From Cloeon dipterum (Eukaryota; Arthropoda; Insecta; Ephemeroptera; Baetidae), in the NCBI RefSeq assembly GCF_949628265.1, contig NC_088788.1:22058335-22122334 (forward strand): a DNA stretch of 64,000 bases, written 5' to 3'. Positions 678 through 35,848 of this stretch are shown here, piece after piece. Within the stretch, counting starts at the first letter, position 1. Every line of letters begins with the position of its first letter. The translations under genes were made by a program, and so were the position numbers. A model generated the notes under the pieces. That model was not told where the DNA came from, did not search any database, and saw only the letters and a list, made by a program, of their open reading frames with translations.

Positions 678-3600
678 ATGTCTAACAAATACCAAATGAT
701 GGAGGCGGAGATGAGCAGGTTTGTAATTTTCTACAACTTCCCCCGACAAAATCCACCAAAGATTATCGTGCCCTGATTACAAACTTTATGCTTCCGTTCC
801 GTAAACAATTTGTTTGTATGTGTAGCAGCGTAGGGAAGCATGGTGAAACGTCATTATCATTTCCGTGCGTTGTTCCAGGTTTGAAGCCGAAATTGGAGCA
901 CGACCAGCGTCATTTTCAAAGCCTCCATCCGGCAGTGCACGTTCGACTCTTCCGCCGCCACCAATGCCACCAATGTTAATTCCTCACTCTGTCCATAAAT
1001 CTGCATCTCTTCAGAAACCGCCATGTAAGCTATCATCCTCCTAGACCACTATGTAGATACATATAATTATATGTATACATATATATGTGTATTTTTTAAA
1101 TCGTATTCATACCCTCAGATTTAAAAAACTTTCTTGAGCCAGTTATGTAATTATAACACACCAATAATTAAAATTTAATTGACTTCTCTCATCTCAACTA
1201 ACCATAAATGATGGTTGGAAGGTGAGAGATATGATTCAATCTCAATTTTGGCTTTGGTTCCCCTAATGAGAAAAGTTCAAAGTTCAAAGGCACACATAAC
1301 TCATTGTTGAAGCAGTTGTATTAATTGTATGTATTCATTTATTCCCTTATTTTCAGTGTTTCGGCCAAGCTCTGTAACAGCAGCTGCAGGCAGCATAGCG
1401 ACAGTTTCGTAAGTATTCAAGAGACTTCAAGTTATGGTGTTATTATTCAAAATCGAACATTAACATAGATATAAAATAATACTCTCCTCTCTTGCAGAGC
1501 AACACCAAAAATTTATAAAGCACCACCCCCACCGCCTGTTGCATTCGCACCGCCAGTCTTGAAGAAACCTGCACCGACACCTTTATCAATGGAAATAAAA
1601 GGACTGCCGCAAGCCAAAAAACCTCGTAAGGTAGACAACCTGGTAAGACAAGGGGACAAGTTAGGCATGCTGGCCTTCAGTTTTGTTTGCTCACCCAGCA
1701 TGGAGAGGTTGAAACCCTAGTCTGCTACTTCTGCTATTTTATTGTAGTGATTAACCTTTTTAAGTTGAGCTTCTTGGATTTATTTGTGAATCTAAATTAA
1801 ATCATTTGCTCATCGCATCACTTAATAATTCAGTTACTGTTAAATGTGGGTTAATTCTAACATGATTCCCTAAAATTAAACAGAAAAAAAGCAAGGATGA
1901 CGGTTTGCCTGCAAATGTTGGACCTTCCATTGACTTGGCAGAGATTGGCTACAAGAAGGCCAGGGAAAAGAGACAGGAGAAGATTGAGAAAGCTGGTGGA
2001 AAACGTATCATTAGGCAAGGTGGAAATCAAGTTTGGGAAGACACATCCTTGCTTGACTGGCCAGATGGTGAATTATGCACATTTTTCAAAAGTTTATATT
2101 CCTTACTTTCTTTTTTTCTGTCAGATGATTTTAGAATATTCTGTGGTGATCTTGGTAATGATGTCACCGACGAAGTGCTTACCAGGGCTTTTAACAAGTA
2201 TCCTTCATTCCAAAGAGCCAGAGTGATTCGAGACAAACGATCTAACAAAACCAAGGGATTTGGATTTGTTAGCTACAAAGATCCGCAAGACTTCATACGA
2301 GCTATGAAGGAAATGAATGGTGAGTACAAAACTTTCTAATACTTATATCTGACTAAAATTAACCTTCAATCAGTGCACAATTTAACTAGAATTTCTCAAT
2401 AATTTTGGTGCAACATGAAAAATATTTGCAGTACCTGAACTCGCTTCTTGCTTGTTTGCAGTTTGCATCAAATCCAGCATGCGAGAAATAATTTCAAGTG
2501 ATTAATGTCTAGCATTTTGTTTAAACCCTTGGTGTGAAAATGATAGCACTATAACACAAGGTGGTCCTTTTTCTGGACTGAACTGATTCACTGAGGCTCG
2601 CGAGACCATTTTATTTGTTTGCGGTATTCATCAGATGAAAGTTTTGGCGAATTTCTTGCCATGAGAAGTAGATAAACTGTTAACAAAATCGAAAATTTTT
2701 GCAATTTGAGGCAAGTTTCAAGAAAGTTAAATTTAGACCAACAAAATATTCTGTAGGACTGTCTAGGATCTTTTAAAATCTTGCCCGACAGCAACTTTAT
2801 AACTATCTAGATCAGGTTGTAGCATCAAACATGGTTTTTGGAGATGAAAATAATCCTAAAATGAAAATCCCTTCGAGTTTGCATTGCACATTTATTGCTG
2901 CACTAATAACCTAGTAATGAGCGAATTAACAATGAGAAAATGAACAAACCGTGAACCAACATGTTAAATGAAACTGCAGCATTTCCAAAATTATTTTCCA
3001 AGCGGTCCCCAACCGTAGGAAACAAACAGCTGTGGCAGGCTGGAATAGTTTTTGTTGTGATGCAAGTTGTTCTCGGCCCTGGGCTGGCTGATCTGCGTTT
3101 GCGAGATTTCCGGGGGCTGTGTGTTTTCATCAAAGTCCTCTTCAAATATCCTAGAGTCGGCAATCAACGCCACTCCGGGATTGAGGCCGAGCAGGGGGCT
3201 GAAACGCGGCTGGCGAACCTTGCCTTCCACTTCGGGCTGCCTCTCCTGGCGAAGGTTGTCGCGCTGTTGTTGCATCAGTTTTCTGTTGCTGGCGTGATTG
3301 AGGTGTGCCGACACCATCCCTCCGGCACCCCAACCACGGCTGGTGAACACATCTTTCTTTGAAAGGGTCCTCGAGGGGAACAACTGCTCCAGCTGCTCGA
3401 TGCGCATCTCTTCCAGTGCCTGACGCATTCGTTTTTTGCACCACTCCATCCTCCAGCAGCGAATTAAGTGATCGCGCATTCGCTCTGTAATAATTAAATC
3501 AAATCAAGAATTTAATGCATATGTGTCAATTAATATTTCAATTTAGGTCGTAATTTGGAAGTCTTATCTGGTTTTACGTGAATTGCTAATTAAATAGATA

Positions 3601-10616: not shown

Positions 10617-14804
<4,188 letters not shown>

Positions 14805-15018
14805 TTTTCTCGGTATTTGAACAGTTTTCGCATTAGCCGCCAGATGGTCTGTCAGTGCAGCTGTTCCCCTTTACTTATGATCTGGTCGCCACCATCACCA
14901 TGGCCTGTATCAACAAAACAGCGGAAACAGTCCAGGACTAATTTTATTTGGCTTAAAATTCAGCCCCTCTAATGATTACGTAAAAACTCTTGATGTTTGC
15001 CTAAACATTTGGGAGTCT
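14805..15018. promoter_or_regulatory. Putative bidirectional promoter between TBC1D23 and B3GALNT2-like gene
   Basis: Only 214 bp separate the two divergent start codons. The segment must therefore hold both 5' UTRs and core promoters unless either gene has an upstream noncoding exon. It contains CGCCAGATGG near 14840, but no clear TATA box was recognised. Shared regulation is an inference from the spacing. Confidence 0.5.
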
Positions 15019-16682
15019 ATGGAGATGCAACCGCTAGTTTCATACTTTGTCTGCTTACTGTCAATCCTTTTCATAAGATTTATAATTTTTCGGCCAGACA
15101 ATGGTATGTACAAACAATAAGAAAAAAAGAACAAAAATTCGTAGGAATTAAAAATAATATTTAAATAATTTGTCCAGAATCTTCAGACCTTGAAGACCAC
15201 AACCACCTGTTCCTCATTGGGATCATGTCCAGGAGGGAAAACCTGAAAATGAGGGACAGCATTAGAAACACCTGGGTCCGCAGCCTGAACAGTTCTCTTG
15301 GGAAACACAAATTTCTCATCGGCAAGGATTTCTGTCCCATACCTCCTGTTGACAGGACTTCAGAGTATTCTTGTGAAGAGTGGACTCCAAAAATAGCCAA
15401 AAGTACTGTCATAAATGCATCTACATATTGGTGCAACTTTTAAGAATTTTTTATATTTCAGGCCTCTCTAGAAAAGACACTTCCTATGAGATTGAATCTA
15501 GCAAAATCATTTTTAACTCCAGTCAAACCATGGTCAAAGATCTCAACTTTCAAGTTCACTACGAAATAGTCATCAAAAGACTGTGTCTCCTCTCTGAGAT
15601 AATTAAATCTCACGCCAGGCTGAGCTTAATCAACCTAATGACCAATGAGAGAGTTTTCACAGCCACATTCTCTTCTGAAAATGTGAACGAGAAAAAAGAG
15701 CTATCAACTTGCAAGCAAGTGGAACCGTTTGTGTTCCCCAAAGGATTTGAGGGGAAAATCTTGCTGACCACAGACAACAGTGTGAATTTGGAGAGCAGCT
15801 GCAATGTGATCTTGACTGACGACTCTCACTTTGTTACATACAGAAGTACCAGGAAAATGCTTCGAAAAGAATTTTGTGCCCCTTTCTCAATGTCATATTT
15901 TGTTAAAGGTGTTGTTAATGTTTTTAAGCCTACAACCTAAACTAACAGATTCACGTTTTTAGACATGGAGGGACTAGAGAAATTTCTGTCACAGAAGCAG
16001 CAGAGGTACTTTGACTGGATGACTGAACAAAAACTTCTGACTTCTCAACTGATTTTGGAATCTGAGAGACATGATGATGTCATTCTTCTAAACATTGTAG
16101 ATGTGTACAGAAATCTTCCTAAGAAGCTCATTTACTTTTTTAAATGGTAAAATACTGTTTCCATCAAACAAATATTCATTTTGCTAATTTTTAAAAACTG
16201 CGATCGTCATCTTTTGCTATTACAGGGCGGACAGAAATGCAGAGTATGAGTTCCTTTTGAAGACAGATGATGATACTTTTGTGGACACAAAGAGAGTGAC
16301 ACAAGAACTGCTGAAGCTGCAAGACACGAAAAACCTGATATGGAGTTCATTTCGTGAATTTTGGCCTGTGCAGTCGTCTGGAAAGTGGAGGGAGGATAAT
16401 TACAACTCCCTCACCTATCCTCCTTTTCCTTGCGGATCTGGATATGTGTTAAGTGCAGATATTGTCAGCTACCTAGTTGACAACAGTGAAGAACTTTTCA
16501 AATTTCAAGGAGAGGACACCTCAGTTGGTATTTGGCTGGCTCCGCTCTCACCATTTTACAAGAACGACTGTTGGAAGTGTAGTGACTGTTATAATTTTGC
16601 TTGTAATCAGCCACAATTGACAGAAAAAGAAATGTATGATGCGTGGGTTGTGTATGAAAAAGAGGGGGCCATTCTGTGTTAA
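15019..16682 (+). CDS. B3GALNT2: Beta-1,3-N-acetylgalactosaminyltransferase 2-like glycosyltransferase (GT31)
   Basis: Exons 15019-15103, 15178-15402, 15462-15908, 15963-16146 and 16226-16682 join in frame to 465 residues (human B3GALNT2 has 500). A single membrane anchor lies at about residues 5-25 (SYFVCLLSILFIRFIIF), the type II topology of Golgi/ER glycosyltransferases. Hallmarks include RDSIRNTWVRSL and KFLIGKDF near the N-terminus, VDVYRNLPKKL, the metal-binding DDD in LLKTDDDTFVD, PPFPCGSGYVLSADIV and FQGEDTSVGIWLAP. The long insert between the KFLIG and VDVYRN blocks is typical of B3GALNT2 rather than of shorter beta-1,3-galactosyltransferases. In vertebrates the enzyme adds GalNAc to O-mannosyl GlcNAc on alpha-dystroglycan. 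That the insect enzyme has the same substrate is inferred. The exon 2 donor (A|GTACTG at 15402) is weak but is the one that keeps the frame. Confidence 0.88.
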
Positions 16683-17506: not shown

Positions 17507-20500
17507 TTATGCGTAGAGAGCAACCCCTTTCCTTGTCCAATGACCAACTGATTTTGATCCTATATGAAGTGGAATATAGAAAATCGCTTCTTTTGACGTG
17601 TGAATAAATACTGGGCACATGAAATGGTCTGAAAAGTAACCGTTCATTTTAAAAGCATACTTCCTCTCATTTAAAATTATGCATTGTTTACCTTGGTAGT
17701 CTGTTGTGAAGACAAAATTTGATGGCTTCATTAAAATCTTTGGCATTTTTGAACAAATATTTAAGTCTATTGCCTCCACAAGAAAATTATTTTCACAGTC
17801 CCAACAAGCACCAGACAATTTAAGTCCGTCCAAAATCACATCTCTCTGTTGTAAAATATATTTAAATCTATAGTTTAAAACTGCCTGGTAGTGTATTTAC
17901 CTCTTCTAATTGAGAGATGTCAGTACCAAGCACCTCGAACGTCCATGATACTGTGATGGCCTCATAGAAATGACCACTCAAATCCTTTACATTTATAAAT
18001 TAAACTATAATTTTAAGAACTTAAAATACAAGACTTGCCTGCTTTAGAGACGATAAAAGCGCGGCCGCATATTCAAAAGCTATTAGTTGAATTGTTATAG
18101 GGGATAATCTTTTCACATCTTGAACAACTTGGGTCAGTAGCAAAAGTTTCGTCTTAATATTTTCAAAACTCAAGGTCCTCCCTTCTTCTGAAAAATGTAA
18201 GTGGAATTAGTATGATTCGGTCAATTTTTATAATGCTCTAGTTTCTAGAAGTATAATAGAAGCTTTTTCTAGGGAAATCAAAGTTGATGCAGCAATGGTT
18301 ACGCAGTTAAATTTTAGAACTTCTTAAAACTTCTTAAATTGACTCAAATAATATGGTGTAGAAGCGTTGTCAAAAGGTTTTTGATTCTTAAGTGTAAAGA
18401 CACTGTATTTGTTGACGGAATTTTGGAAAATGCTAATAAATCAAATGTACTTAATTAATTAAATCTGCACCTTGATTTGAAAACCATCTTGATGGGACCT
18501 GCTCTTTTTCCAGTGCAATCGCGTCTGATAGCATGCCGCGGTTGAAAACAAGTTTTCCTGAAATCGCTTCTTTGAGATCCAAAACATGCATCTTCATCGG
18601 CGTGAATACTTCATGAAGCAGAAACTGAAGCTGAAACAATATCGTTATTATAAGTCTACCCGCTCGATAAATTGTACCTCTCGCTCCAAATGTTTCCGAA
18701 GTTGTGGCCATGCGATGGAGTCCTCATGAAAGTCAAGATTTTTTGATTCCGCTAATCCAAGAAGTGCGTCTATTTTGGCGATTGCTTGCTGCAAATTCAC
18801 ATCATTTATGGCTCCTGCAGACCATTTTTTTAGCTATAGATATACCTTTGCAAGTCTTGCAATCTGCGTCTCCAGCGTTAATCCTCTCAATTTGCGAAGA
18901 CTGTTGAGCAAACTTTCACTTGCACGCAAATCATTGGCAAAACTCGCGTTGATCGCAAACATTTGCTGGTTATTTGAGGACTTAGTTGGCAAATCGGAAA
19001 ATGCAAATGAAAGTCCATCTTCGCTCCACGTCATTTGCAGTGGACTAAAGAAAATTTTAAAATTTCCTAAGGCTGAAAAACGTATCGTTAAAAAAGCTTT
19101 ACTTATCATCTGATGATGCCGTGAACGCGTGCTCCCACATTATCTCACTGCTTATGTTAGTCAACATCGTTCTGTCCACTTCGTTGATTATCCGACCCAA
19201 GTAAGCTACGTCGATGGTCCATTCTAAGAATTCCTTGCTGATAGTGTCAGTAAATCCCCTCGCAGCAATTTTCTCCAGCAAGCAAAGAGCAACCTGAGAG
19301 AAAATCATAATTTTATTCCTAATTGGGATTTACTCGCTCACATGAAAATCGGTGTCTGGAAAGTCATATTGCTGCAAAAGTTTCCCTTCCAAAAGATTCT
19401 GCCTGCCAAGAATACATGTGTGCAGAAGAGAAACATTCCATGCATGTTGTTTCAAAGAATGGGACCAGTGCCTAATTTGCAAATTTTGCAAGAGACGCTT
19501 CATGTTGTCTTGAATACTCTGAAAACAAAGCTTAAAAGCTCTTAAATGGTTCCTTTTTGCTTAAATCTTACCTGTGGTTTTTCCAAAACAAACAAAGCTG
19601 AATGCTGAAAATCGTAATTCTGCAGTTGCTCTTTAATGTCTATCACCACCCAAGTCCTTGAAAATAATCACGTAATTATATAGTTTCGAAATAGATAAAT
19701 TTTGATGAACCTGACACTGTTGTTTGGTTCTATTAACTGCGCCCGCTGCAATACCATTTGAAGTTTTTCTTCAGTAGGAAACAACAAAATATTCCACCTC
19801 TCCTGGATATCCCGGCCGATGGTACTAAATGGAGCAGTAAGATTTTTAGCAGTAATTTTTTTATTGGATTTACCATTCTCTGTCTCCAAAATTCACGCCA
19901 GTGATTACTGCTTTATTCAAATTTGCAATGCATTCTATGGTTGAAACAATATCAATACACGCATCTGCTCTAATCACAATCGGAACTTGAAGCGTGGACT
20001 GAGAAGCCACTGAAAAGAAATCTATCTCTTGTTTTTTCAAGAAGTCGTCGCCGATCCATAGCGATACAAATTCAGAAATGCACTGACAAACTCTATCTGG
20101 CCGCAGTGACGCGATGAGCATTAGTCGCAGGGAGGGTACCATGCTGTTATAAACGCCTGCGTGAAAGAAATGTTATGCAATTTGACCTACAACGAAATGC
20201 TGCCGGTTGCATACACTTTACAATCAGCAGGCGCCATTGGCTTACCAGGCAAATCCAATTGTTCTGCGTGTTCGCACCGCAACAGAATCTTCCAATCTTC
20301 CTTGTTTGCTTCCAGATCTCTCGCTAAATTCACAAACGGTCCTCCAAAACTTTGCAAAATTTGCACGTTTTTCCAAGCAGCACCTGACACCCATCCTAAA
20401 TCTGGATTTAGTGACCTGTTGTGTGTTTTAAAATTCTTGCCTACCAATGCCGTTTGAATCACTTTCCTCTGAAGATATTTTCATTTTGTGCAGCACATAG

Positions 20501-23500
20501 TCGACATAAAGTTGAAGTGGCCCGTCTCCAGAATTTTCAAGGAAACAGAGACAAATCACAAATGATAATAGTAGTTTGTGTTCCTCTTTGAATTTAGGCA
20601 GACACATGCTGAATCAAAGAGCATTTTTTAGATTTCTTGGTTAATTTTTGCTCAATCATTCAAATTACCTGTAGATGTTCAAAGCATGGTTGCGAACAAA
20701 ATCCGCTCGATGTTTTGGTGACAGTATAGAGGGTATTTTAGAAGGGATAGCTCTCTCAAAACATGAGATGAATGCTTCTAAATTTAGAGTGAACAACGAG
20801 TCAACTTTGTTTAGCCTTTTGACCATTACGTAGAAGTTTGCAGCTTCATTGCACATTTGGACGAAGTGCTATAATCAAAGCACGTACATTTATAAAAAAA
20901 GTCCGAGCAACTGTAAAAACTGACAAACCTTTCTATGCTGGTTTATGTGATCTTCATTTTCAAGTAGCGCTGACATGGTCTTTTTTGAATAGTCTAGTGC
21001 TTCTTTAGTTTTCTCCAGTGTATCCATGACTGTTTTGTCATCTAAAATTGTTTCCTTGCATTCCAAAATTGTTCTATCGAAAAAAAATCAAGGGTAGCTT
21101 TAACTTTCAAGGGAAGTGCACCAAGAAAGTGCACCAATTGTCCGATAATTTTTTTTAACCAGATGATAGTTAATAAACAAAAAGTTTCACCTTACAAGGC
21201 TAATTTCCCCGTTATTGGTTGAATTTTAATTTTTAACAAAGCGTTGAGAGATTCTTGCAACACTCAAATTGTGTTACAGATATTCGCCGCTACCACAGCG
21301 CAATAAAAACGACCGCGATCCTCCAACCGCCCGATATAACCCTCGTTTACCCCATAAAAATGGGAAATTCACCATAATTATGTTTTTGAACTATCATCTG
21401 GTTTTAAAAAAACGTTCAATTTGATAATTGGTGCACGTCCAATGTTTAACAATTACTTTTGAAGTTTATGAACAAGCCTTTTGAGTGATTGCGATTCCAA
21501 CAAAATTTTTTTGGAATTCTCAATTCTGTCAGCATGCAGTATTCCGTTTTCTTTCTTAACGAAAACATCCAGGAGACAGTTTTGGAGACCTTAAAATCCA
21601 TTCATTCATATTAATGTCATAAAACCCTAGTAGCGTTATTTTTACCTTCGACTTGACACGAAAATTCCACGATATTGAAATGTGATGCAATGATGGGATT
21701 GGTAAGTACATTTTCAACTGACGCAAAAAAGTATATTTCTGGCCGTCTCTCATGATCTTTAAATGAATTAAAGTTTACTAAAAAATATGAAGAGCTCCGT
21801 TTAATCTTACCAGCATTTTGAATGGTATTTAAAATACTAATTGCTTTCGAACAGAATTTCAAGGTTAAATCTAATATAAAGATAATTTCTCCTCTTTGCA
21901 AAGATGTAGTGACTCTTTCTACCAATTCGCAGTCACTGACCTTCAAATACACCAATTTTGCTGGATCCTGCATTGAATTAGAAACGCTATCTACTCAAAT
22001 TAAGGTTTAAATTTTTATTTTACCCAATCAACGTAGACTTCTTTTAACCATGAAAGTGTTAACCCTTGAGGATCGTACATAAGGGTCGGTCTTTGGTTGT
22101 GTTCTGATATGCCGATTTTCATCACTATTTCCGCACTCTGTTCTAAATACCGATCTTCATGGAGCTTTTGCAAGTTCCATCTTCTTATTGTCATAGCACT
22201 GTCATCTACGCATCGATCCTCATCGTTCAGCCGTAATTCATCAAGCTATTTTTGACTCTTCATTTTATTGATAATTTTTATTGTAATTAGGATTACCAAA
22301 TTTTTCAGTATTTTTAACGAAGATAGTCTTTCATTGTGTTTAAGCGCCCCAAAGTAATGGTACTGGATTGAGCGGTTGATGTTTTGTACACATTTGCCTT
22401 TGCAAACAAGGTGGAAATTGTCATCAAACGTATGCCATTCCTGTTCCTCAGTTGAAAGATCTGTCAGCAAATCATTTGCTCTTTGCAGCTCTGAAGCCAT
22501 GTCTTCAACCTTAGCAAATACTTAATTACCACAAAATCACTGTATTTCTCATGAGCTACCTCTGCGTCCAGGATTCTTTTGCTCTCCAAGCATTTCTCAT
22601 ATTCAACTTTCTGCTTGACGAGTTTATTCTGGAGAACAATAATTTTGGAATATATATCTGCAAGCTCTGCTTGGTGCTCTCGCAGTTCTTTAGACGCACG
22701 CTCTAACTTAGAACGCTTCGGGGCAGCAATTCTGAATTTCACATTAAAATCACTACGGGTGCAAAGAGTCGATCAATGAAAAATGACCGTACCTGTATAT
22801 TTTCCCATATTTTTCCATCGCTAGCACCCACTGCGCCAACAATTTGGCTCCGTTGGAAATGAGCTCGATTTTTTCCAATACAAAGTCCTCGTTGCTTGTA
22901 ATTAATGAGACACTTTTAAGAATTTTTTCCGGAATGTGGTCTTTGTCAAACTGGTGGAGCTGAAAGAAAGTTTTTCGATCCAAACAAAAAACTTCAATCT
23001 CTTATTATACCTGTTCAATGAATGTTGGATCAGCAAGTTGCCGTTTGGCCTCTGCCCAAGTTGGATCGGCTTGCTTTAAAAGCATTACTGCAGAAATAAC
23101 TGATTCTACAATGGGTGGCGGTCTTCCGTATGATCGCAGATTTTGTAAGTCGATCGGTTCAATCGTCTCAAGTGCCAAATCTGCATCCTCTAGGTACGGA
23201 ATAGCCTCGTCCATTGCTTGGTGAGCGATTCTAGCTAGTTGCTGAATGGAAACTTCTTCCTGATCAATTTGATGCTGCTTTTTCTCGTGTAAGGATTTTT
23301 GCTCCTCAACTTCTCGCTTCTTTTGGCCCAACATAACCAAAGCTGTTTCGCACTGTCGCTGGCTGTCGACAACTACAAAACAGGACGTTTAGAGTTATTT
23401 AAGATTAAATTTCAAACAGCCATGGCCATGGCTACCCTTTCTTTGTGCTCGTAAAAGTGCTGAAGACATTGCCGCCATTTTTTTCATGGATGCTGTTAAT

Positions 23501-26500
23501 TGAACCGTGCATTTTTTAAACATTTCTCTCTTCGATTGCAGTTGAGTTTGTTGCTCTTCTACCGTGCTATAAATTAAAACAATGTAGTACACAATTCTTC
23601 TCAATTTTTATCTCCAAAAACCTCTCAAATGTTCTTAGGCACTGAAATAAATGAACAGGTGTGATTTTGGCTTCCCAGCCTTGTTTCCTTATCTCGCTTA
23701 AAAGATCTGAGTGAAACTTGGCGAAACACATCGCTATTTGTTCTTTTCTGTCGTTCTTTGCAAGTGAATAATAATTTGATTTCATTCTGTTAAATATTTC
23801 AATATAATCAACGTTTTACCATGAAAGGCAGATCAAGGTTAGATATATATTTTGAGGTAGCATGGAGGTACGTTTCGTAAGAACATTCTTCATGAGCAAC
23901 AATATTCCACTTCAAAAACGCTGGATTGCTGACAAGGAAGTGTCTAATGAAGAGAAGATCCAGGCTTAAGAATTAACTAATTTTCGTTGAGTACCTGAGG
24001 AAATCCTTGTTGAAGTTCAATTTAATTGCGATGCGCAAATTTTTCTTCACTTCTTGGACCAAAAACATTTCCACGTTCTCACGATATTTTAGAGGGACAA
24101 CTAATCGTAACTATAGTCGAGCGAATAAAATAAAAATTAATGTAATATTAATCTCAACAGAGCAGATGATGCAAACTCACTTTATCAAGTTCGTCTGATG
24201 AAATAAGTCCAGGAGACGTACCATTTTCCGAGATGCAGTTAATGAGTTCGAAAAACCTTCCATCACATATCTGCGACAAGCAAGTGGCATTTGTTTTAAT
24301 ACCAAAACAATTAAAACATTATCTCACATGCTCTCCATCTATGCCAACTAGAATTTTTTCTCCTCCCAATCCAGCCCTTAAAATAATGTTTTTCCAAAAG
24401 AGCTTGAATTCTTCGAATCCACTGATGAGCTCCACAAGTACAAACGACAACCCACAAATAAATGACGATAGTTTAAGGAGAGATTTTCTTCCACTTCCAG
24501 CTGCATATAGCGATTAATAAAAGATTTATTTTGAAATTTTATCAAAACATATCAATATATACCCTCTCCATTCAGAATGATGTTGTGGTATGAGGGCTGC
24601 GACAAAATGCGGACCAAGTTAGTCACCTTCTGTACTGTGTCATCAACTATTACTAATTGCAGTTCAGTGTTTTTCTTGTCACTATTGTAATCCAGCAAAG
24701 CGTTCTCAATCCGTGCACTAGCGTTTTCTATTGAAATCTCCACTTGACTATCAAGTTCATCATCTTTATCACTATACAACCCTGCACAAAATATTTAAAA
24801 TTTACATTAGTGTAACGAGTTAAAAAAATCGCTCACCAATCAAAGGTATTATTTTATCTGGGTACAAATCAGCATAAGCCAAGCCAATTTTATGCTTCAT
24901 ATGTGACAATGCCTCCTTCCAAATTTGATCTTTTAATCTGTAAATTATCTGTCAAAGGGGTTTTTGACTTGTTTTTTTTTAAATTCACCTCTTTTCTGTC
25001 AGCCTCGAACCGTACGCCCGCTGCATTTCGTTCATCCACAATCTGCACATTGCTGGCAAAGTGTTATGGTGGTTTACATTGCTCAATGTCAATCCCTGAA
25101 TAACCTGCTCAAAAAAAATTGAAATAAGCTTTTTGTGACAATAGCTGGTTCGAACCTGTGACAAGATCTGGAGGCTGTACACACACTGAGGGTTGTCTAT
25201 ATTAGCAACAATATTTGCTTTGATTGATTTGTGTAATGCTACTGTCGATTCGACCAGTTGATTTCCTGAAAAGCCACACAATTAGGTTTGGTATCAATTG
25301 AGTTTAACAATAATATATACCCAAAACTTTGATGTGCTCTCCGAAATGAAGTAGGTGTTGGCCGAGAATTGAACCGTAAATGTGGACAAGCTCGCTATCC
25401 GTGGGGCTTGAGAAATTCAAATTCGCAAATTTGTTGCTAAGCCTTTCGTCCAAATTCATATCGTATCCCCTGTGACTCAGAGACACAATGAGGCCCAAGT
25501 GCTTCAAAACAAAGTTGGAGTGTACAATTAATTATTGTGATAAGTCTTTAATACTTCTAATGCAGACTCCTGTAAATTCTCATTCATAAAGAATCCATAG
25601 TCAAGCCATTGGCGGAAAATTTCAGCCGCCGATGGATTCTTCTCTGTCAAATTCAGATCTTGAATGAACAGTATAAGAGATTTAGCTGAAAATGTGACAT
25701 TTTTAATTAATCAAAATGATTTTTATAATTATCACGCATAATCAATCAACCTGTACCTTTCTTATGTGCTAAGACATTATTTGATCTAGGCTGCATTTTT
25801 TTAGAGATAATATCCATCAACACAGTTTTGCTAGTCTATTATTTGTCAGTTTTTGTTATTAAAACATTTTACGCCCAATTGAAGATTTTTTACCATTGCT
25901 GTGCAACTGATTTTCAAGCTACTGTATTTTTCACATTCAAAGCTTTCCATGACTTTATCGCTTGTGTAAGATTTTCCACTTCCGAGACAGCCACTGACAA
26001 GCACGGGACGTTTTTGCTCAATGAGAATTTTCAATACGTATTGGAACTTCGCTAAAGTTGCAGTTGGAACCAGGATTTCATGAACTGGTAATCTGCGAGT
26101 TTTTAATTTGCAGGACGAGTTAATAGATCTTCACATTCAGAGAAAACATACCCTTGGTGGTATTTCCAAACCCGTGGTATGGTGCTGGTCCAGTTGACAA
26201 ACTTCTTCCGCTTGGAATCCACAAAGTAGTCAAACACAGTTTCCTCTTTCGGAAACACATCACTCTCCAATGACCGCACAAACTCGTCAACCAAAGAGTG
26301 ACAAGATTCATGAGTCGCTCCAAAAATCCCCCAAAGAACACTGCAAAAACTTTTAGCCGAAAACATTCGAGCATCTTATCAAATATACCTGAAGTAAAAC
26401 CACTTCTTCGCGAGCTGTGTAGTTTCCTTTTCGCCGTTGAATTTCGGGTGTTTCGATATAAGCCATTGCAAAATGGCACACAGGTTCTTGGATGCGCTCA

Positions 26501-29500
26501 CTTCATTTTGCCGAATCCTTTCTGAACATCTAGCCTTTTTAAAATCAAAGCATTTTTGCAAAGACTCCGAAAACAGAAGTTGAAGCTAAATGATAAAAGT
26601 TATATACATTTTAAGAATCCTCAGGTAATTTTTCTATAATATATATTGATATATCTACCTCCAATTTTAAAGCGCCTTCCTCAAATTTTTCGATCCACGG
26701 TTGAACAATTTGCCGCCACCCAATATGTAAGTCTCCGAAATAAATGGAGCAGAAAGCGCTGATGATGTTTGGAGATACTGCGTCTAACGAACTTGTTTCA
26801 ATCAGGATTTTCGCCTTTCCATAAACAAGTAAATATTATACATGAAAATTAATTATTTAACAGTAAATGCAGTCACCTTCCTGTTGGTCAATATTAGTCC
26901 CATTTCATTGAGACCACAGAATTGATATTTATGATCTAAAAGCTGCACCACGTTTCCCAACCAAGTATCGCTCACTGTGCCATCAAAATATATCCAGTGT
27001 GAATCAACTCGCTCATCTGGCTCACACGCTTGTAAAATTCTTTGTATTATACCAGGTATCAATTTATTTTCTTGCTTCAACCCGAAAATGTCGTTGTAGC
27101 TTAGTAAATCAGGATTAATAGCGTGGAGCTGGAAAATGGCGAATTAATTAATATGAATTAGAATATAAGGTTGAAATTTTAGTTTCAAAAATTAATCAAA
27201 TTCATATTTGCGATCAGTTTTTTGCAACATTATTGATTTTTTTGAATATATGTTACCTTAATCGTTGAAAAATCAGGTAGCTTTAATTTCCTCAAGGCGT
27301 GAATTAGCATTTTAAGTGTGGTCGTCTTTCCAGAAATAGATTTGCCAACTAACGCGACTGGTTGGCTACCGCGAATAGCATCAAAAAGTTGCAGGCCGAA
27401 TTTTATTTGCTCCTCAAGTGGCTTAAATCATTAATTAATAAAAAGCAAAAGATCTAAGTTTCTTTACCTCCATTCCGTTATCTTGAAAAGCTGACTCCAG
27501 AGCACCTTTCAAATCGTTGTTTTCAAATATCATTAATTCTATCCCAGGGAAAATTTGATACACGTAATGCTTAAATATTTGCTGATCCTCTGAGTTCAAT
27601 TGAGGTTCAATTTTGTTTACAAGAGAGTGTAAAATAGCCTAAAAACTATGTGGTAGACATCTACATTATTTACCTTTAGAGTGATTCTTACCTCTTCCTC
27701 GGTCAAGTTGAAGTGATTTCGTTTGATATCTACAGCAGATTTCACAACTGTCATAGTGGTTGTGTTGGTGGAAAAAATCCATCTTGATTTGTTGCTCAGG
27801 TGCAATCGGCAAAACAATCCCATCTGAATCAACTGCATTCGGAAAATAATCCTGTATTTAGTGACTTGATGGCAATATTAAACCTTTTGAGAGAGCATTA
27901 AAGCTTCTGTAAATCCCTCAGCAATCAGCAACATCTCTGAAATTTTGCCCGTGTCGGGTCCCTTCATCGCGATGGGTCTGAAGAAGGCTCTGAGTGATGC
28001 TGGCAGACCATGTGTGTTTGGACCTATTTTAGGGCAATGTAATAAAAAAGTAGTAATTGCTATAATATATACCTGTAGAGGCTAAAAAGAACGTTGGTTT
28101 CAGTTGAATACTGATAGGAATGCCATTTAATGTGACACTGCTGTCAAATTCATTGTCATTCATCGATCTTAAAAACCGTGATAGATGGTATGAAACCTCT
28201 TCGAGTACGTTTTTGTTCATGTCTAAATAGTTTTTAATGACTGCCCAAGCGCCTAATTTTGCTGTGACTGATGTTAGATGAATTAATATTAATCACAATA
28301 ACCTCAATAACCGACAGTGAAGATTACCTTCAAATGCCATCAACGCTGAATCTACTGACGAATAATTGCTGCAGCAGTAGGGAAGAACCAGACGTCCTAA
28401 AGTTTTAGCAAGGCAACGAATTGTTTCAAATTTTCCACTTGCTCTTGAGCTCTCAATTGCTACGTATTTGTTCAAGTTCAGAGCCGTCGTTATGTGAATG
28501 ATGTATCTAAAATTAAATGGTTTCACTAAATTGATTTAATGCAACGTGCAGTGCACAGATGCCTAGCAGGTTGCCTAACTACATTTTACCTTTCGGTTTC
28601 CGGAGTAATAACCGCCTGATATACATCTTCGTAAGTTTGATAAGCATATTGAGAAGATGAAAACATTTGAATGATTGTGATTTCTGCAGTGTCTTCGTTG
28701 AAATAGAATTTCATCAGGGTCGAAACTTCAAGTGAAGTAGGTTCAACCCAATCTGAAAGCAATCATGCATTAATATAGACTATCTGGTGTTAGAAATCGT
28801 TTATGAAACCATTTTTTATGAGATCACTGATTTTCTTAGACAAAAATAGCTCAGAAGTTAATAGAGCTGTCGTTTTCTGTCGGTCTGCTAGAGACATGTT
28901 TGTGGTGAGATTTTCACTAAGGCGCGTAATCACGCCATCATATTCTTTGCGCATTTGTTTCAAAGACTTTTTTGACTCGCTCTTGTACCAGCTTTCCAAC
29001 GCTTTGTCCAGCTCAGACGTCCAATAAATCTAGAGATTATACTTAAATATTTTGGAGCCGCAATCTTGTTAGAAACCTGTCCTGCAAGAATGAGAGTTTG
29101 TGCTGGGAAAGTGCGAATCCAGCGGTCGGTTTTGTTAGGGTTTTTTATTAGTCCAGAACAGCAGCGAATTTGCAAGGACTGTAAAGCATCTTTCATCATT
29201 TCAGCTGGGAAGTTTAATACATATTTGCTAGTATTTGCAACGTACATGAATTTCCAAAATATTTCTCACCTAGAGCAATGATAGCATCAGCAATATTATC
29301 ACTTATTTTAATAATCTCATTAAAGAGGAGCATTTCACCACTTGGCGTGACAAAGCCAACAATCTCATTTGCCTAGGTATGAAATATTAAAAAAGCTTAG
29401 AAACAGGAAACTTGCTTTCTACCTGTCGGCCAAATTTAAAGCTGCTTATCCCTGGAAAACATTTCGGGATCAATGTCCGGTAAGGTTCACCTCCGAATTC

Positions 29501-32500
29501 AGGCTTGAGGAAAAATTCCATCAGCTCTTCGTTGTTCAAGAAGTAGAGTCGTGGCGCTCCTTTAACTCGAGTTTTGATTTCCGATTGGGCCTCATATTCT
29601 GCCATTTCCAAATGATTTTTGAGTTTCTTCGCCGAATTCTTCCCACCTTTAATAAATCCTTATTACTAACTTAAAATCACATGCAAGATTCAAAGTCTAC
29701 CTCCAGGCACGGCTTTTTCCGCTAATTCCAAAAAGTTTTTACTGGATACAACACGTGCCATGATTTCATTCCATGCATCCAAGATATTAACTTCTGAGCT
29801 CTCGCTAATCAATTTTTCTTGACAGGCAGTTTGAGGCTGGATAAAAAAATCAAAAGTTATAAATATAACTTTTGAATTCAATATTAGTGTTCAATAAACC
29901 TTAAGACACAGTATTCGATTTTGTAGATCAAAGATTTCATTCAAATAGTGCAAGCCGTTTTCCAAAAGAACTTGCCACTTTTTCAGATCTCCGTCAAAGA
30001 CCAGCGCATTTCTTGAATTAGATTAGTTAACGGTTATTAAAAATACTAAAGTAAATTTTAGTTCCTTACTTTGACCCTTCCAACACTGCTAATTTGTCTA
30101 AGCTCGAGTCGATTTTTCCCAGTACTTCCACTGGTTTCTCGATCGTAGTAATTCCTTCTATGTCTTCTCCAGGGGACAAATTCATACCTTGCCACTCGAT
30201 TTGTAGCTCTGACAGGCCTCTCTCGATTATTTCTTCTTCAATAGCATGAGCGCAAATTGCTTTTATTTCCTCTTCAAAATTGTGCATTGAGAGCGACAGA
30301 AGGAATTGTAAAGTAAAATTCTCTGATGTGCTATCAAGCCTCCTTGAATTGCAAAAATAATTTAAAATGAAAATTATGTCGGATAGTATTTACTGGTTGA
30401 TCATTTTCTCCACATCTATCCAGTGCCGCTCCCGAAGCGATGACTTCTTCAATTTGCATATAATTGGCAAACCGTATTTCAAATTTTCAACGTGTTCCCT
30501 TGTCTGCTCGACAACGTTCCACTGTCGAGCCGGTCCATTGGAGATTTCTTGCAAAGCTGACGATATTTCATCTATCTAGAAATTAGTAATTTTGCAATCT
30601 CTGACGATCGGTAAAAATTTGAAATTAAACCTTTTCTTGCAACTGAACTATTTTAAGGTTTTTGAACAGGCATTTTTCATAAGTTGCCCAGCAGCAATTC
30701 CAATCTTTTCTTACGATCCACACTTGCTCCAACATGCTAATTGTCTGCGAACATTTTGGCATAGAGATATTTCATTGAAGACATTTTATTAAAACCTTTT
30801 CCAAAACACTCATTTCTGCTAGCTGAGGTGGATCTACGCCGAATATGTCAAATTCTCCACTTAGGTCCTCTTTGTGCTTTTGTAACGCAACAAACTCAGA
30901 TTTCACATCTTTCAGACACTTGAAGACATCTGTTCATGTTTTAATTTAAAATTTACCAACTCTTCAAATTTTGAAACAAACCTGAATCATTCCAGTCGAT
31001 CGTGTATGGACCTTCGATGTTAACTTTTGCGCACAACGTGCCCAGCTCTCTATTCAGTGAGTTCCCCTTCTCTATCATATTTGTACGAAATTTGTCTTTG
31101 CTTTTTTCAAGAGAATTTTTTGCGTCTTCTAATGCAAGCAAAAAGCGCTTCCAATCTGTATTAACGCTCTTTACAAGGGAAGATAGATGGTCAGGAAAAT
31201 CAACCTTAAAATTTCCTGCGAATTGAACCGTGGTTTATTAACTGCAAAAACTGTGAACTGTATTTACGCAATATCTGGCAATATTCATTAAATAGCTCCA
31301 AATTTGCCTCGTTGCTTTGCATGTGGGCCATTGTTAGTTGACAAAAGATGGTCTTCTCTGCCACCTGCTGCAATGACTGTGGCTTGTAGTAAAGCCTGCA
31401 AATTTGAACCTGTTGGCAGGACTACTTTTCGAATTAAGGATCACCATACTTTTGTATATCAACTGAAAGCTGCGAGCTCATTTTGTCGCCGATGCGTGTA
31501 GCGGAGTCCAAGATGAATTTGATTGTTGCATTGTGCCATGATTTTGTTAAGACAAAAATCTTTTTTTGCAAGTTTATGGCATCCAATTTTATGAATGCTA
31601 CAGTAGCTGAGGTAGGCAGATTTGCTTGAAACAACAGATGCGAAAAGCTGGGACGAAAACAGTGCTATGAAAGTAAGTGCGTCATATTATATTATTTCAC
31701 CTTTCCACGTCCTTGGCGAGTGCCGAGGCACTTTGTGTGTGGTATCTTTGTAGAAAGTCGTCAATACTGGTGTCCCAAAGCCATGAAAAGTGAAGCCATT
31801 TTTCTAAAAACTCGTTCATTTGTCCTTTCAACCATATCAGCTCTAATAAAACATTAGAAGATGTATATTTATTGCATTAATCTTCATACTTGTATTTTTA
31901 AAACCAGCTTACCCGCTTGAAGGTCAGACCTGACTTTTCTACAAGCTTTGTTTGTTATCGTTTTGTGTTCTAAAGTCACTTCTGGTTCGATTTGCTCAAC
32001 TCCAACTAGTTCCAGCAAACTTGGAACTGTTTTTACTAAGCACAAATGAAAATTAAATGCTTGACTTAATTTCATCTCAATGTCTTGCAGTACTTCACTG
32101 AAAATTATCTAAAAAAGCCGGTTTTACAATTTTTCGAAGTTAAAATGAGAAATATGAGAAAACCTGTTTGTCTTCAATATCTACTGTGACCGTCATGTGA
32201 AATGGTACTGCGTGGAAAATATTCAAAATATCCACGCATGAGTTTTCAATAATTGAGATCACTCCATTTTCCAGCAAATTATTAATCTTTTGGTAAAATG
32301 CCTCCCAGTATGGTTTGACCTTTTATTATTTGAAAATTTAGCTCAGACGTGTTTTAAAATATTTTGATTTAATTTTTACATTAACTGAAATATCTCCAAA
32401 CAGCATTCTGACTTTCTCAAGGCAGGCTAGTATCTCTTCAAAATCGTGCCTCACGGTGTGCTCAAATGCTTCCTGCACTTCACTGAAACTATACAAGTCG

Positions 32501-35500
32501 ATGGGATTGATTTTCATAATTTTGGATGCTGCTAAATTGGTGGCTATGGTTTCCATCGACGTCTTCGTCTCATTAAGTTCTCTTACGAGCTTCTTAAACT
32601 GAAAGTTAAAACAAAATTAAGATCTTTTCCGGTTAATTATTGATATTCACTTCAAGAGTAGACTTGAGTTGGCGTTGCAAATAATTTTCTGGCACATTTG
32701 AAGACCACGTGTAGAAAAACATCGCAGGATTTAAATCTTCGTTCACCTTAGCAATGTAGTCAATAAATAGACCAAAATCCTCTTCTTCGATGCCTATGAA
32801 TATTCATAGCTTAAACCGTTTAAAACTGTTTAAAACTTTAAATTCAATACTAACCTTGGATTGCTTCATTGTACTGATGACACATGAGTTGAACATCGTC
32901 GTTTAAGTTCCCCAGTTTTTCTTCCAATCCATAGAGCTCCTGCATTTTTGGCGGTGCTTCATGCCCAAGACTTTTCCAAATTCTAATTTCTTGTATGGTC
33001 TCGAATATATCTCTATAGTTTTTAAACGATTTTAAAGCTTCGCAACATTAAATTTAAAATTGCCTTCCAAGGGTGGGTTCAATCATGCACTCATAGGCAG
33101 GATGATATGCTATTAGTGACCGTTTTAATTTTGCCTCCCAGTCCATCGGAAGGGCAATCACCCATCTGTCAAAAATTTCCTGAATAGTCTCATCAACCAC
33201 CGACACGAAAAATCCTAGTTCCTTGTGAACCTTCCCAGCATTTTCACAGTCGGTTAAAAAATTGCATTTCTCGACGAGCTGAGTTTTTCTTCATCAGTCA
33301 AAGAGAACTCATCAGTAATACTATAGCTTTACCAGCATTTGGCCGACCAAATAGCATCTGCTGTTATGAGCTGCCAATGCAATTCCTGAGTAAGGAGGAT
33401 ATCCTGAGTAGCCAATCAGCTCACCGCCAAGTAACGATTTGCTTGCTTTTTCAATATCTTTCAACAGCAAACCAAAAACCTATTGAAACGAATGAAAATT
33501 TATTACACTTTTACAGGGAAAAATTATACTATTTTGTACAAAGTTTGTTTTTTCTTTTAAAATGCCCTGGAGTGAGTCTTTTTGGAGAAAGTGTAGAAGT
33601 CCCTGTAAGCTGTTGACGCCTTCAAATACATTTGCAGCATCATCCATTATGGAATTTATCACGGCAACTATTTTTCTCTCCAACTGTTTTATTTTGTGGG
33701 AAAATCTAAAACATTTGAAAACGATTAAAGTTTTATAATCGTTTGCATTTAGTTCGAAATGAACTTTTCCATTTCATCCCGCCACTGGTTGTTTGTAACA
33801 TCTAGTGCAATATCCTGAAATTTTCCCATTTCTTGCACCGCATTCAGCGTCTCGTGACGTATTCTGTCACAAACAAATTTGTATTGAAGTCCTTTGATTC
33901 CCACAAAATTCAGGCTTCTAGGTTCTTTTTGCTCGTTGACCCTGAATATTCAATTATTAATAATTTTTCTTAACTCAACAATAGTGAGAACTTAATACCT
34001 GCCAAAAATAAGCATCGCCTCAAATATTGTTTTTAAGTCACTGCATCTAGATAGAAATGAAAACACGTTGCTGTAAAGTTCTTTCTGGTCGATAACTTGC
34101 TCAGCTTTCTGTTTTCGTTGAAAGTTCTGTAAAATTCCAAAAGTCTCAAATAAGGAAACTTAAAATTTTAATTTAATTACTTGTTCGTAAATTTTCAAAA
34201 AAGATTCGCAATCTTGAGTACAACGTCTCACTTTTTCCATCCCAAGCACAGGCTTGCCTTTGAAAAGTGATCTAAGTCTGACTGTTTTTGCGCATATAGC
34301 AATTATTTGATTTCCCAGGCATGCCAAGAGCTTAAACAGGCGGTCTCTGAAAGATTTTTATTTTATTAAAAAAATTTACTTTTGTTGAAGAAGTACCAAT
34401 ACTTTTCTTTGAAGCAATTGGTTTTCCGGATTTCCCTAATTTTTTTTAGATGATCCACTATCAAAGGTTCAGCGTCCTGATATGATGTGCACCTTCCAAG
34501 TTCCTCATTCTTCTCACGTAGCTTGTTCAACTGCTCCAAATTTTGAGAGCAGTCTTCTCTTGAAAACTAGAAATATTTTAAGCAATGGCATTAATAAATG
34601 TAATTTTCATGTTTCATTCATTTAGTAAAATATTTTTGTAATTGACAATGTATTATTTGAAAATGAAATAAATCTACGTTCGAATTCAATTTTTGTTGTT
34701 TTATGAGTATTACCTGGACTGATGTCAACAATTCAACGAGAGTTTTGCTGAAATGAGATTTCCCTTGCTCCAAAATTTGGTAAACACGTTTAATTTTCTC
34801 AGCTTTCAACTGGTCCTCAAGGTAGATCATATTTTGTACTGTTGTTTGTGTTATTTTGTGTTGAGTACATTAAATTTTTTCAATAACTTACGTTTTGATT
34901 CCCAGAACGATATTAAATCGGCAATTCCTGGAAGTTTGCTTTGTAGACCTTCCAAATTAATTGCTGCGTCTATTTGGACATGCCAATGACTCACCGCAGC
35001 TGAATTAAATGAATTATTCATATGTTCAAAATTTAAAAGTTTAGCTAGTAAAAAACATACCTTCTAATTTGCCAATTAATTCTGGTGTTATTTCGTTCAG
35101 ATTTTCAGCTGGTAAGTAAAGGTTTGTTATATTTTTTCCATCTTGCGCTTCATTGTCAATTCCCACGAAAAATTCATTGAGGTTGCCACATAATTTTGAC
35201 TTGATTGCTAAATTTTTTATTTAAATAGGACAGCTATGTTGCAATATGTGAATAAAATAATACGCACTTTCAGGCCAATTGTTTTCACCGAAGATGAAGT
35301 TAGGAGCGAAAAAAGATTGCATCAAACACACAGTACCAGCCTTTGCTTTCATGGGGACAGTAAAGTGTACTAGGTCATTGGTGAAGCTCTCTTCGCTTGC
35401 ACCGTCACTTTTGTGCAGTACAAAAACGTCAATAAGCTCTGCCTCATCAAGAAGGTCGGAGTCATCGAGGCAAGCAAACAATTTCCCTTTGGCAACTCCA

Positions 35501-35848
35501 ACGTACAGAGCTCCCCTTTCAACTTCTGTTGCAAATTTTCGTATTGCTGCAAGAGACTGTTCGCCGAATTCCGCATTGGATGTAGTTTGCATTGTCAAAC
35601 ATTTCCTAATTTTTGCTGCTAGTGCATGATCGTAGCAAGGGCTAGTCGTCTGATCGTCATCTACAGTTTAGAACGATCTTATTTATGATCGGCTGTGCTC
35701 CAACTAATGCAGATTGTTGTTTACCTGAGGCAGTAGCACCCTTGTCGCTCTCCACCAAATCTTCCTTTTGCGACGGCTCTTTTTCATCTTCCACGGGGTT
35801 TATATTTCTGTCTGAATTGGTTATTTCCTCTGCTTCAAGCTCTTCCAT
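17507..35848 (-). CDS. Divergent dynein heavy chain with degenerate AAA1 ATPase site
   Basis: A full-length dynein heavy chain, split by dozens of short introns, reads from ATG at 35848 (MEELEAEEITNSD) to a stop at 17507-17509. The protein is probably above 4000 residues; I did not join every exon. In order it shows: an N-terminal tail (35848 to about 30 kb); the linker end, with TFPAQTLILAGQ and IYWTSELDKAL (about 29.14-28.99 kb); AAA1 (28506-27.9 kb); AAA2 with Walker A GKSISGKTTT (exon 27421-27257) and WIYFDGTVSDTW (about 27.0 kb); AAA3 with GCLGSGKS (about 25.98 kb) and ILFIQDLN (about 25.66 kb); AAA4 with GEGAGSGRKSLLKLSSFICG (24.58-24.44 kb); a coiled-coil stalk and microtubule-binding domain (23.6-22.5 kb) with DPTFIEQV and DKDHIPEKILK; AAA5-AAA6; and the C-terminal end VGHWTRKGVALYA. 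The C-terminus resembles axonemal heavy chains (HWIKRGVALL). AAA1 has ESSRASGKFET where GPAGTGKTET is expected, and VIKNYLDMN where CFDEFNRI is expected. It may be a DNHD1-like or a fast-evolving axonemal chain; I cannot decide. Confidence 0.88.
21129..21436. mobile_element. MITE-like inverted-repeat element in a dynein heavy chain intron
   Basis: Imperfect inverted repeats of about 50 bp bound a 308 bp segment. The left arm starts GTGCACCAATT and includes CCAGATGATAGTT; the right arm is its near complement, with AACTATCATCTGG and AATTGGTGCAC. The segment explains why this intron is about 400 bp when most introns in the gene are near 60 bp. It has no coding capacity. A clear target duplication was not resolved; a TGCA next to CCAATT on both sides is one possibility, so the exact ends and superfamily are uncertain. 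Confidence 0.65.
27914..28506 (-). other. Degenerate AAA1 module of the dynein heavy chain
   Basis: The exon at 28506-28328 begins RYIIHITTALNLNKYVAIE and carries ESSRASGKFET in the Walker A position, followed by the normal helix RCLAKTLGRLVLPYCC. The next exon, 28261-28073, has GAWAVIKNYLDMN where other dyneins have GAW-CFDEFNRI, so both acidic Walker B residues are gone. At the exon end and the following exon, ASTGPNTHGLPASLRAFFRP stands for the usual MNPGYAGRxxLPxxLKxLFRP, so the sensor-1 asparagine context and the glycine-arginine pair are changed. Flanking AAA1 landmarks (FFRPIAMKGPD, LLIAEGFTEAL) are preserved, which makes the alignment firm. Splice sites at 28328/28261 and 28073 are canonical and in phase. 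Confidence 0.85.

Follow-up and report, generated by a model that had tools for sequence, protein, structure and literature searches.

A DNAH2-class dynein heavy chain of Cloeon dipterum with a degenerate AAA1 suggests inner-arm motors turned into passive struts

The dynein heavy chain gene described here lies in a 64-kb window of the Cloeon dipterum genome (the whole stretch of DNA that was analysed). Judged by its residues, its AAA1 module cannot be a normal ATPase, as the P-loop is reduced to GK and both the Walker B acids and the sensor I segment are lost. Besides, several sister motors of the same genome are partly or wholly broken at AAA1, which suggests that motors have been turned into passive struts. 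Our best explanation, to which we give a probability of about 60%, is that the window gene encodes a DNAH2-class (I1/f beta) heavy chain and that the inner-arm dyneins of this insect are largely no longer normal motors, acting as non-motile cross-bridges.

The gene was modelled by dynamic programming, ab initio from DNA alone (Table 1), and two AAA1 exons that the automatic model had clipped (28506-28328 and 28023-27884) were set by hand after inspection. Together with a third AAA1 exon (28261-28073), they are flanked by GT-AG sites and have consistent phases. Among the 79 introns of the model, whose median length is 57 bp, 76 are of the GT-AG and three of the GC-AG type. The spliced coding sequence of 4265 codons has no internal stop; for scale, shuffled sequences of the same composition contain a mean of 291 stops and the other two frames 284 and 290. 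Since the model was selected to be stop-free, the open frame proves a long coding path but not the correctness of each exon. A frameshift suspected at 27850-27690, where a second open frame is found (27.8 kb), was rejected because the frame at 27823-27692, aligned by phmmer, keeps splice phase and length. The Pfam matches succeed each other as in a dynein heavy chain (DHC_N1, DHC_N2, AAA_6, AAA_7, lids, AAA_8, MT, AAA_9, lid_11 and Dynein_C), with lid_11 at 27.5 bits, under its cut-off of 31. Elsewhere in the window, a reverse-strand gene at 36822-62310 displays cadherin-like repeats and a cytoplasmic tail and resembles a Dachsous-type protocadherin. Three further genes resemble a TBC1D23-type gene (10638-14185, reverse strand), a galactosyltransferase-type gene (14911-16664, forward strand) and an RNA-recognition-motif protein (1872-2330, forward strand).

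Table 1. Features of the window gene (window positions) and other dynein heavy chain loci of the genome (contig and position in Mb)
Feature	Position	Strand	Evidence or remark
DNAH2-class dynein heavy chain gene	17507..35848	-	80 modelled exons, 4265 codons; ab initio, start codon and weak exons predicted
DHC_N1 tail region	32693..34345	-	Pfam 2.9e-55
DHC_N2 / linker	29173..30807	-	Pfam 4.2e-55
AAA1 (Pfam AAA_6; match extends to AAA2 P-loop), catalytically degenerate	27323..28648	-	Pfam 6.5e-50 and DNAH2 alignment
AAA1 Walker A ESSRASGKFET (DNAH2 KGPAGTGKTET)	28422..28454	-	DNAH2 alignment
AAA1 Walker B AVIKNYLDMN (DNAH2 GCFDEFNRIN); D to K, E to N	28215..28244	-	DNAH2 alignment
AAA1 sensor I segment STGPNTHGL (DNAH2 MNPGYAGRTEL, 2 residues longer); intron-split	28004..28079	-	DNAH2 alignment
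AAA2 P-loop GKSISGKT, present	27323..27346	-	DNAH2 alignment
AAA3 P-loop GCLGSGKS, present	25969..25992	-	DNAH2 alignment
AAA3 Walker B LILFIQDLNL (DNAH2 MITFMDDLNM), first D to Q	25648..25677	-	DNAH2 alignment
AAA4 P-loop GEAGSGRKS, present, intron-split	24481..24569	-	Gene model; Pfam AAA_8 1.1e-19
Stalk and MTBD (Pfam MT)	22363..23352	-	Pfam 6.8e-27; DNAH2 ranks first
Microtubule-binding domain core, 51% identical to DNAH2	22795..23139	-	DNAH2 alignment
AAA_9 region (presumably AAA5)	21001..22185	-	Pfam 3e-17
C-terminal domain (Dynein_C)	17513..18701	-	Pfam 2.4e-18
g1, canonical by motif			Cytoplasmic dynein 1-like (presumed)
g2, canonical by motif			DNAH5/8-like (presumed)
g3 and g7, canonical by motif			Outer-arm beta-like (presumed); mutual identity 64% over 1005 columns
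g4, canonical by motif, Walker A outside model			Dynein 2-like (presumed)
g6, canonical by motif, model ends after MNPG			DNAH3-type by PDB match
g5, degenerate; DNAH10	C2:25.16M		Walker A GHAGTGKS kept; Walker B CLKQLDSL; RPGQFGR for NPGYAGR
g8, degenerate; DNAH7	C1:26.12M		Walker A kept; Walker B CLDELDSL retains D and E; sensor I region changed
g9, degenerate; inner-arm type without class	C3:31.12M		Top scores 194 and 182 bits, with DNAH7 among the top chains; GPACCGKS (Walker A) and LLDEVHQL retained; NPGYAGR lost
g10, degenerate; weakly DNAH6	C3:30.89M		140 bits vs 132 for DNAH2; Walker A and B lost
g11, degenerate; DNAH3-like	C2:32.17M		Walker A GDPAVGKT kept; Walker B CLKNVEHL

The loss of the AAA1 ATPase motifs, which the original prediction had reported, is borne out by alignment to the DNAH2 chain of the PDB. 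The Walker A and Walker B stretches align without gaps and change from KGPAGTGKTETV to ESSRASGKFETI and from GAWGCFDEFNRI to GAWAVIKNYLDM, respectively, while the sensor I segment changes from TMNPGYAGRTELP to ASTGPNTHGLP, shorter by two residues. Within these stretches, GPAGTGKTET has become SSRASGKFET, which leaves just GK of the P-loop, and CFDEFNRI has become VIKNYLDM, in which both acids are gone (D to K and E to N). All three elements expected of an active motor at AAA1 are thus replaced, and the degenerate module is still matched by Pfam AAA_6 (6.5e-50). Dynein is powered by AAA1 hydrolysis, as stated in an excerpt of a published account (PMC8754002). An alternative exon restoring a canonical AAA1 had been raised as the counter-case to the predicted loss. 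When all six frames of the 64-kb window were scanned, no canonical AAA1 motif turned up, so no exon within the window restores the module. The loops of AAA2, AAA3 and AAA4 had also been described as intact. Their P-loops are indeed present, but AAA4 reads GEAGSGRKS and not GEGAGSGRKS. Concerning AAA3, the P-loop GCLGSGKS stands as predicted, but a changed Walker B had been overlooked: FMDDLNMP of DNAH2 is FIQDLNLT in the window gene, with one Walker B acid gone.

The class of the gene was deduced from pairwise scores against PDB chains. For the 1817 residues of the motor, two DNAH2 chains come first, those of 9fqr (680 bits) and 8j07 (674 bits), followed by the 1-beta chain of 8glv (534 bits), which we take to be the Chlamydomonas chain, and the next chain reaches 428 bits (best 60 of 92 matches). 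The stalk and microtubule-binding domain (MTBD), searched separately (367 residues), return the same order with 187, 186 and 156 bits, the next chain being at 101 (best 60 of 81). Since the 1-beta chain scores above the remaining chains listed, the window gene is assigned to the DNAH2 class by both rankings. The gene is divergent as a whole, with 27.6% identity to DNAH2 over 856 aligned residues (236/856). The original prediction had instead proposed vertebrate DNHD1 as the possible closest relative, a view that gives way to this ranking. No DNHD1 chain appears among the matches listed for the motor (best 60 of 92 PDB matches), so that DNHD1 is set aside indirectly, by class ranking. In favor of DNHD1, the literature presents it as an orphan among the genes related to dyneins (excerpt of PMC8754002); against it, two DNAH2 chains and the 1-beta chain outrank the other listed chains for motor and stalk alike, and we regard orthology with DNHD1 in place of DNAH2 as very improbable.

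Conservation is unevenly distributed along the protein. Compared with DNAH2 of 9fqr, the window gene is 28.8% identical over AAA1 and its lid (83/288), 51.0% over the MTBD core (50/98) and 58.3% over the first part of the MTBD (35/60). DNAH6 versus DNAH2 of the same PDB entry, a thin control made of a single pair of classes and not of a DNAH2 orthologue pair, gives 62.2% (184/296), 43.9% (43/98) and 38.3% (23/60) for the same parts. On these counts, the MTBD core of the window gene is more DNAH2-like than that of a sister class, and its ATPase part much less so. Over stalk plus MTBD, the two comparisons are alike (81/180 or 45.0% for the window gene and 81/176 or 46.0% for the control). The MTBD core is the best-kept of the parts measured and, as far as its 51% identity to the DNAH2 core can tell, the gene would retain the MTBD expected of an active motor. 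Inside the ring, the AAA1 core (56/174, 32.2%) is slightly better kept than AAA2 (23.9%) and AAA3 (28.0%), so AAA1 is not singled out; the aligned residues indicate that the entire ring has drifted and that AAA1 has in addition lost its catalytic residues. Pfam scores for the MT stalk at five scanned loci are 96 bits in the window gene, which is similar to the canonical paralogues g6 (110) and g2 (99), against 513 in canonical g3 and 26 in degenerate g5, and those for AAA_6 at five scanned AAA1 regions are 150 in the window gene, 439 in g3, 253 in g5, 244 in g8 and 87 in g10.

The genome as a whole (190 Mb, 10 contigs) was scanned by profile search, which revealed 38 exon matches of the AAA_6 family at at least 12 dynein heavy chain loci and the Dynein_C family at at least nine loci, all within the 12 AAA_6 loci. 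Of the 11 remaining loci, six were inspected over stretches of about 28 kb and five over stretches of 4 kb. AAA1 is degenerate to a varying degree at six of the 12 loci, all of which rank with inner-arm chains, and the other six are canonical by motif where read. Both Walker B acids are lost in four of the six degenerate loci (the window gene, g5, g10 and g11), with Walker A lost too in the window gene and g10. At the level of motifs, the pattern is one of a group: besides the window gene, AAA1 motifs are altered at a DNAH10-like locus and at four others that rank with inner-arm chains, and the outer-arm-like chains appear canonical. Some points that speak against the strut reading are found in the same survey, since neither g8 nor g9 has lost Walker A or the Walker B acids, and both may retain some activity, and g6, of inner-arm type, looks canonical. 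For g6 and g11, the first 9fqr chain carries another molecule's name, and DNAH3 of 8j07 is close behind. We saw no second DNAH2-class locus among the at least 12 AAA_6 and at least nine Dynein_C loci, where the class labels of g1 to g4 and g7 are presumed from characteristic motifs and local BLAST; AAA1 of g7 shares 61.5% of its residues with DNAH2, close to the 62.2% seen across classes in the DNAH6 control. The genome search found no Dynein_C match at g9, g10 and g11, in contrast to the window gene, g5 and g8, and these three genes may be truncated, too divergent or decaying further. Finally, the Ax_dynein_light (p28) family is present at two places of the genome, together with the RSP3 and RSP4/6 families and many tektin exons, which fits arms that still assemble without being a proof of it. 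Several tektin-like genes are clustered at C4:32.25-32.28M. The genome also contains exons of odorant receptors, a family specific to insects, and one of them is Orco-like, as expected of a winged insect. The Orco-like fragment matches six Orco chains at about 152 bits, with scores no more than 0.4 bits apart, and a seventh at 138.5 bits; such near-equal distances suggest a lineage outside the sampled ones. A search for TTAGG runs with a tool that may skip simple repeats found none, and this repeat is reported to be absent from Ephemeroptera (PMC8977481). The 190 Mb and at least five contigs longer than 28 Mb resemble the 180 Mb and 2n = 10 published for C. dipterum (PMC7250882 and PMC6446309). 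By contrast, a single weak match to odorant-binding proteins (OBP) was obtained, whereas the published OBP family of C. dipterum is described as much larger than that of the damselfly.

How might such a chain work? The DNAH2-class protein would still assemble at the inner-arm site through its tail and partners, and its stalk would bind the neighboring doublet without AAA1-driven release. The head could then act as a passive cross-bridge, strut, spacer or brake, with force coming from the outer arms, and the P-loops of AAA2 to AAA4 may remain able to bind nucleotide and to maintain the ring. We infer purifying selection on the window gene. The original prediction of a static tether or a regulatory partner in a two-headed dynein fits what is seen, as the gene ranks with DNAH2 (one I1/f head) and its MTBD core is the best kept, with an AAA1 that appears dead and a frame that is open. 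The stalk and MTBD of the DNAH10 locus g5 are poorly kept (26 bits for Pfam MT versus 96 in the window gene), so a two-headed I1/f tether might grip by one head only; the two heads may differ, DNAH2 having kept its grip and DNAH10 perhaps not. The I1/f heavy chains of Drosophila are described as testis only in an excerpt of PMC6367277, and the window gene may by analogy act in sperm. A more far-reaching scenario, whose chance we put somewhat short of even, is that most of the inner-arm set has become non-motor scaffolds: both I1/f chains and several single-headed arms are AAA1-damaged with their genes kept, beating or sensory motility is ensured by the outer arms alone, and the DNAH2 head is a permanently gripping cross-bridge.

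Besides passive cross-bridging, the same losses could reflect slow decay under relaxed selection on inner-arm dyneins, the window gene being a dying "ghost gene" that would owe its open frame to chance or to the harm done by truncated products. Several inner-arm genes are hit together, identity to DNAH2 is just 27.6%, and a Dynein_C match is found at only three of the six degenerate loci (the window gene, g5 and g8) and not at g9, g10 and g11. The ghost-gene idea has been published for DNHD1 (excerpt of PMC8754002), and aflagellate sperm occur in some mayflies, as cited in an excerpt of PMC7140630. However, not a single stop is found in 4265 modelled codons with 79 usable splice junctions, despite 72% of aligned residues differing from DNAH2. 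In addition, the MTBD core is closer to DNAH2 than that of another dynein class, where uniform decay predicts otherwise. We hold decay to be unlikely.

A regulatory or assembly role is a less probable alternative, in which the dead head places or paces axonemal parts (e.g. as an I1/f regulatory hub, perhaps with nucleotide sensing via AAA2 to AAA4) and makes no mechanical cross-bridge. The remaining P-loops of AAA2, AAA3 and AAA4 and the strong DHC_N1 (2.9e-55) and DHC_N2 (4.2e-55) matches would suit such a subunit. Moreover, chordotonal neurons of Drosophila, which lack I1/f, retain I1/f-associated regulatory proteins (excerpt of PMC6367277). Yet the Walker B of AAA3 is changed too, and an MTBD core that is the best kept of the parts measured points to microtubule binding. 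Finally, AAA1 could have been mis-assembled or mis-modelled, with a canonical exon elsewhere. Such an artefact could be feared from an ab initio model with two hand-set AAA1 exons and from a second open frame at 27.8 kb that resembled a frameshift. It is hardly credible given that no gap is needed to align the Walker A and Walker B regions, whose flanks are recognisable, that the six-frame scan of the window is devoid of a canonical motif, and that the phmmer-aligned frame at 27823-27692 preserves both phase and length.

Do inner-arm dyneins have to consume ATP, or do they also serve as spacers and brakes? This is difficult to address by deleting the gene, since the arm then disappears as well. 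If the cross-bridge reading is true, the motor role and the spacer or brake role would have been separated by nature in a lineage that keeps the arms but loses the ATPase sites, which would give a clear prediction for cryo-electron tomography of C. dipterum axonemes. Mayfly axonemes are typically of the 9+9+0 type. Among the matches listed in the open-licence literature (titles and abstract openings), we found no earlier report of AAA1-degenerate inner-arm dyneins, and on mayfly sperm ultrastructure the sole find was that three Leptophlebiidae are cited as having aflagellate sperm (excerpt of PMC7140630).

Among known systems, DNHD1 is, like the window gene, a heavy chain related to dyneins and under suspicion of being a remnant (excerpt of PMC8754002). 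The window gene differs in that it ranks with DNAH2 among the PDB chains listed. DNAH2, or dynein 1-beta, is a heavy chain of the inner-arm dynein I1/f, one of its two heads, and corresponds to kl-2 in Drosophila. The window gene resembles it in domain order, in the best match of both motor and stalk, and in a well-kept MTBD core, but it is devoid of AAA1 Walker A, Walker B and sensor I, has a changed AAA3 Walker B, and is only 27.6% identical over 856 residues. Lastly, the AAA1 Walker mutants of cytoplasmic dynein are laboratory-made proteins in which AAA1 ATP binding or hydrolysis has been removed, as would be the case in the window gene. Here, in contrast, the loss is natural, it hits all three AAA1 motifs, and further heavy chains of the C. 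dipterum genome also show losses.
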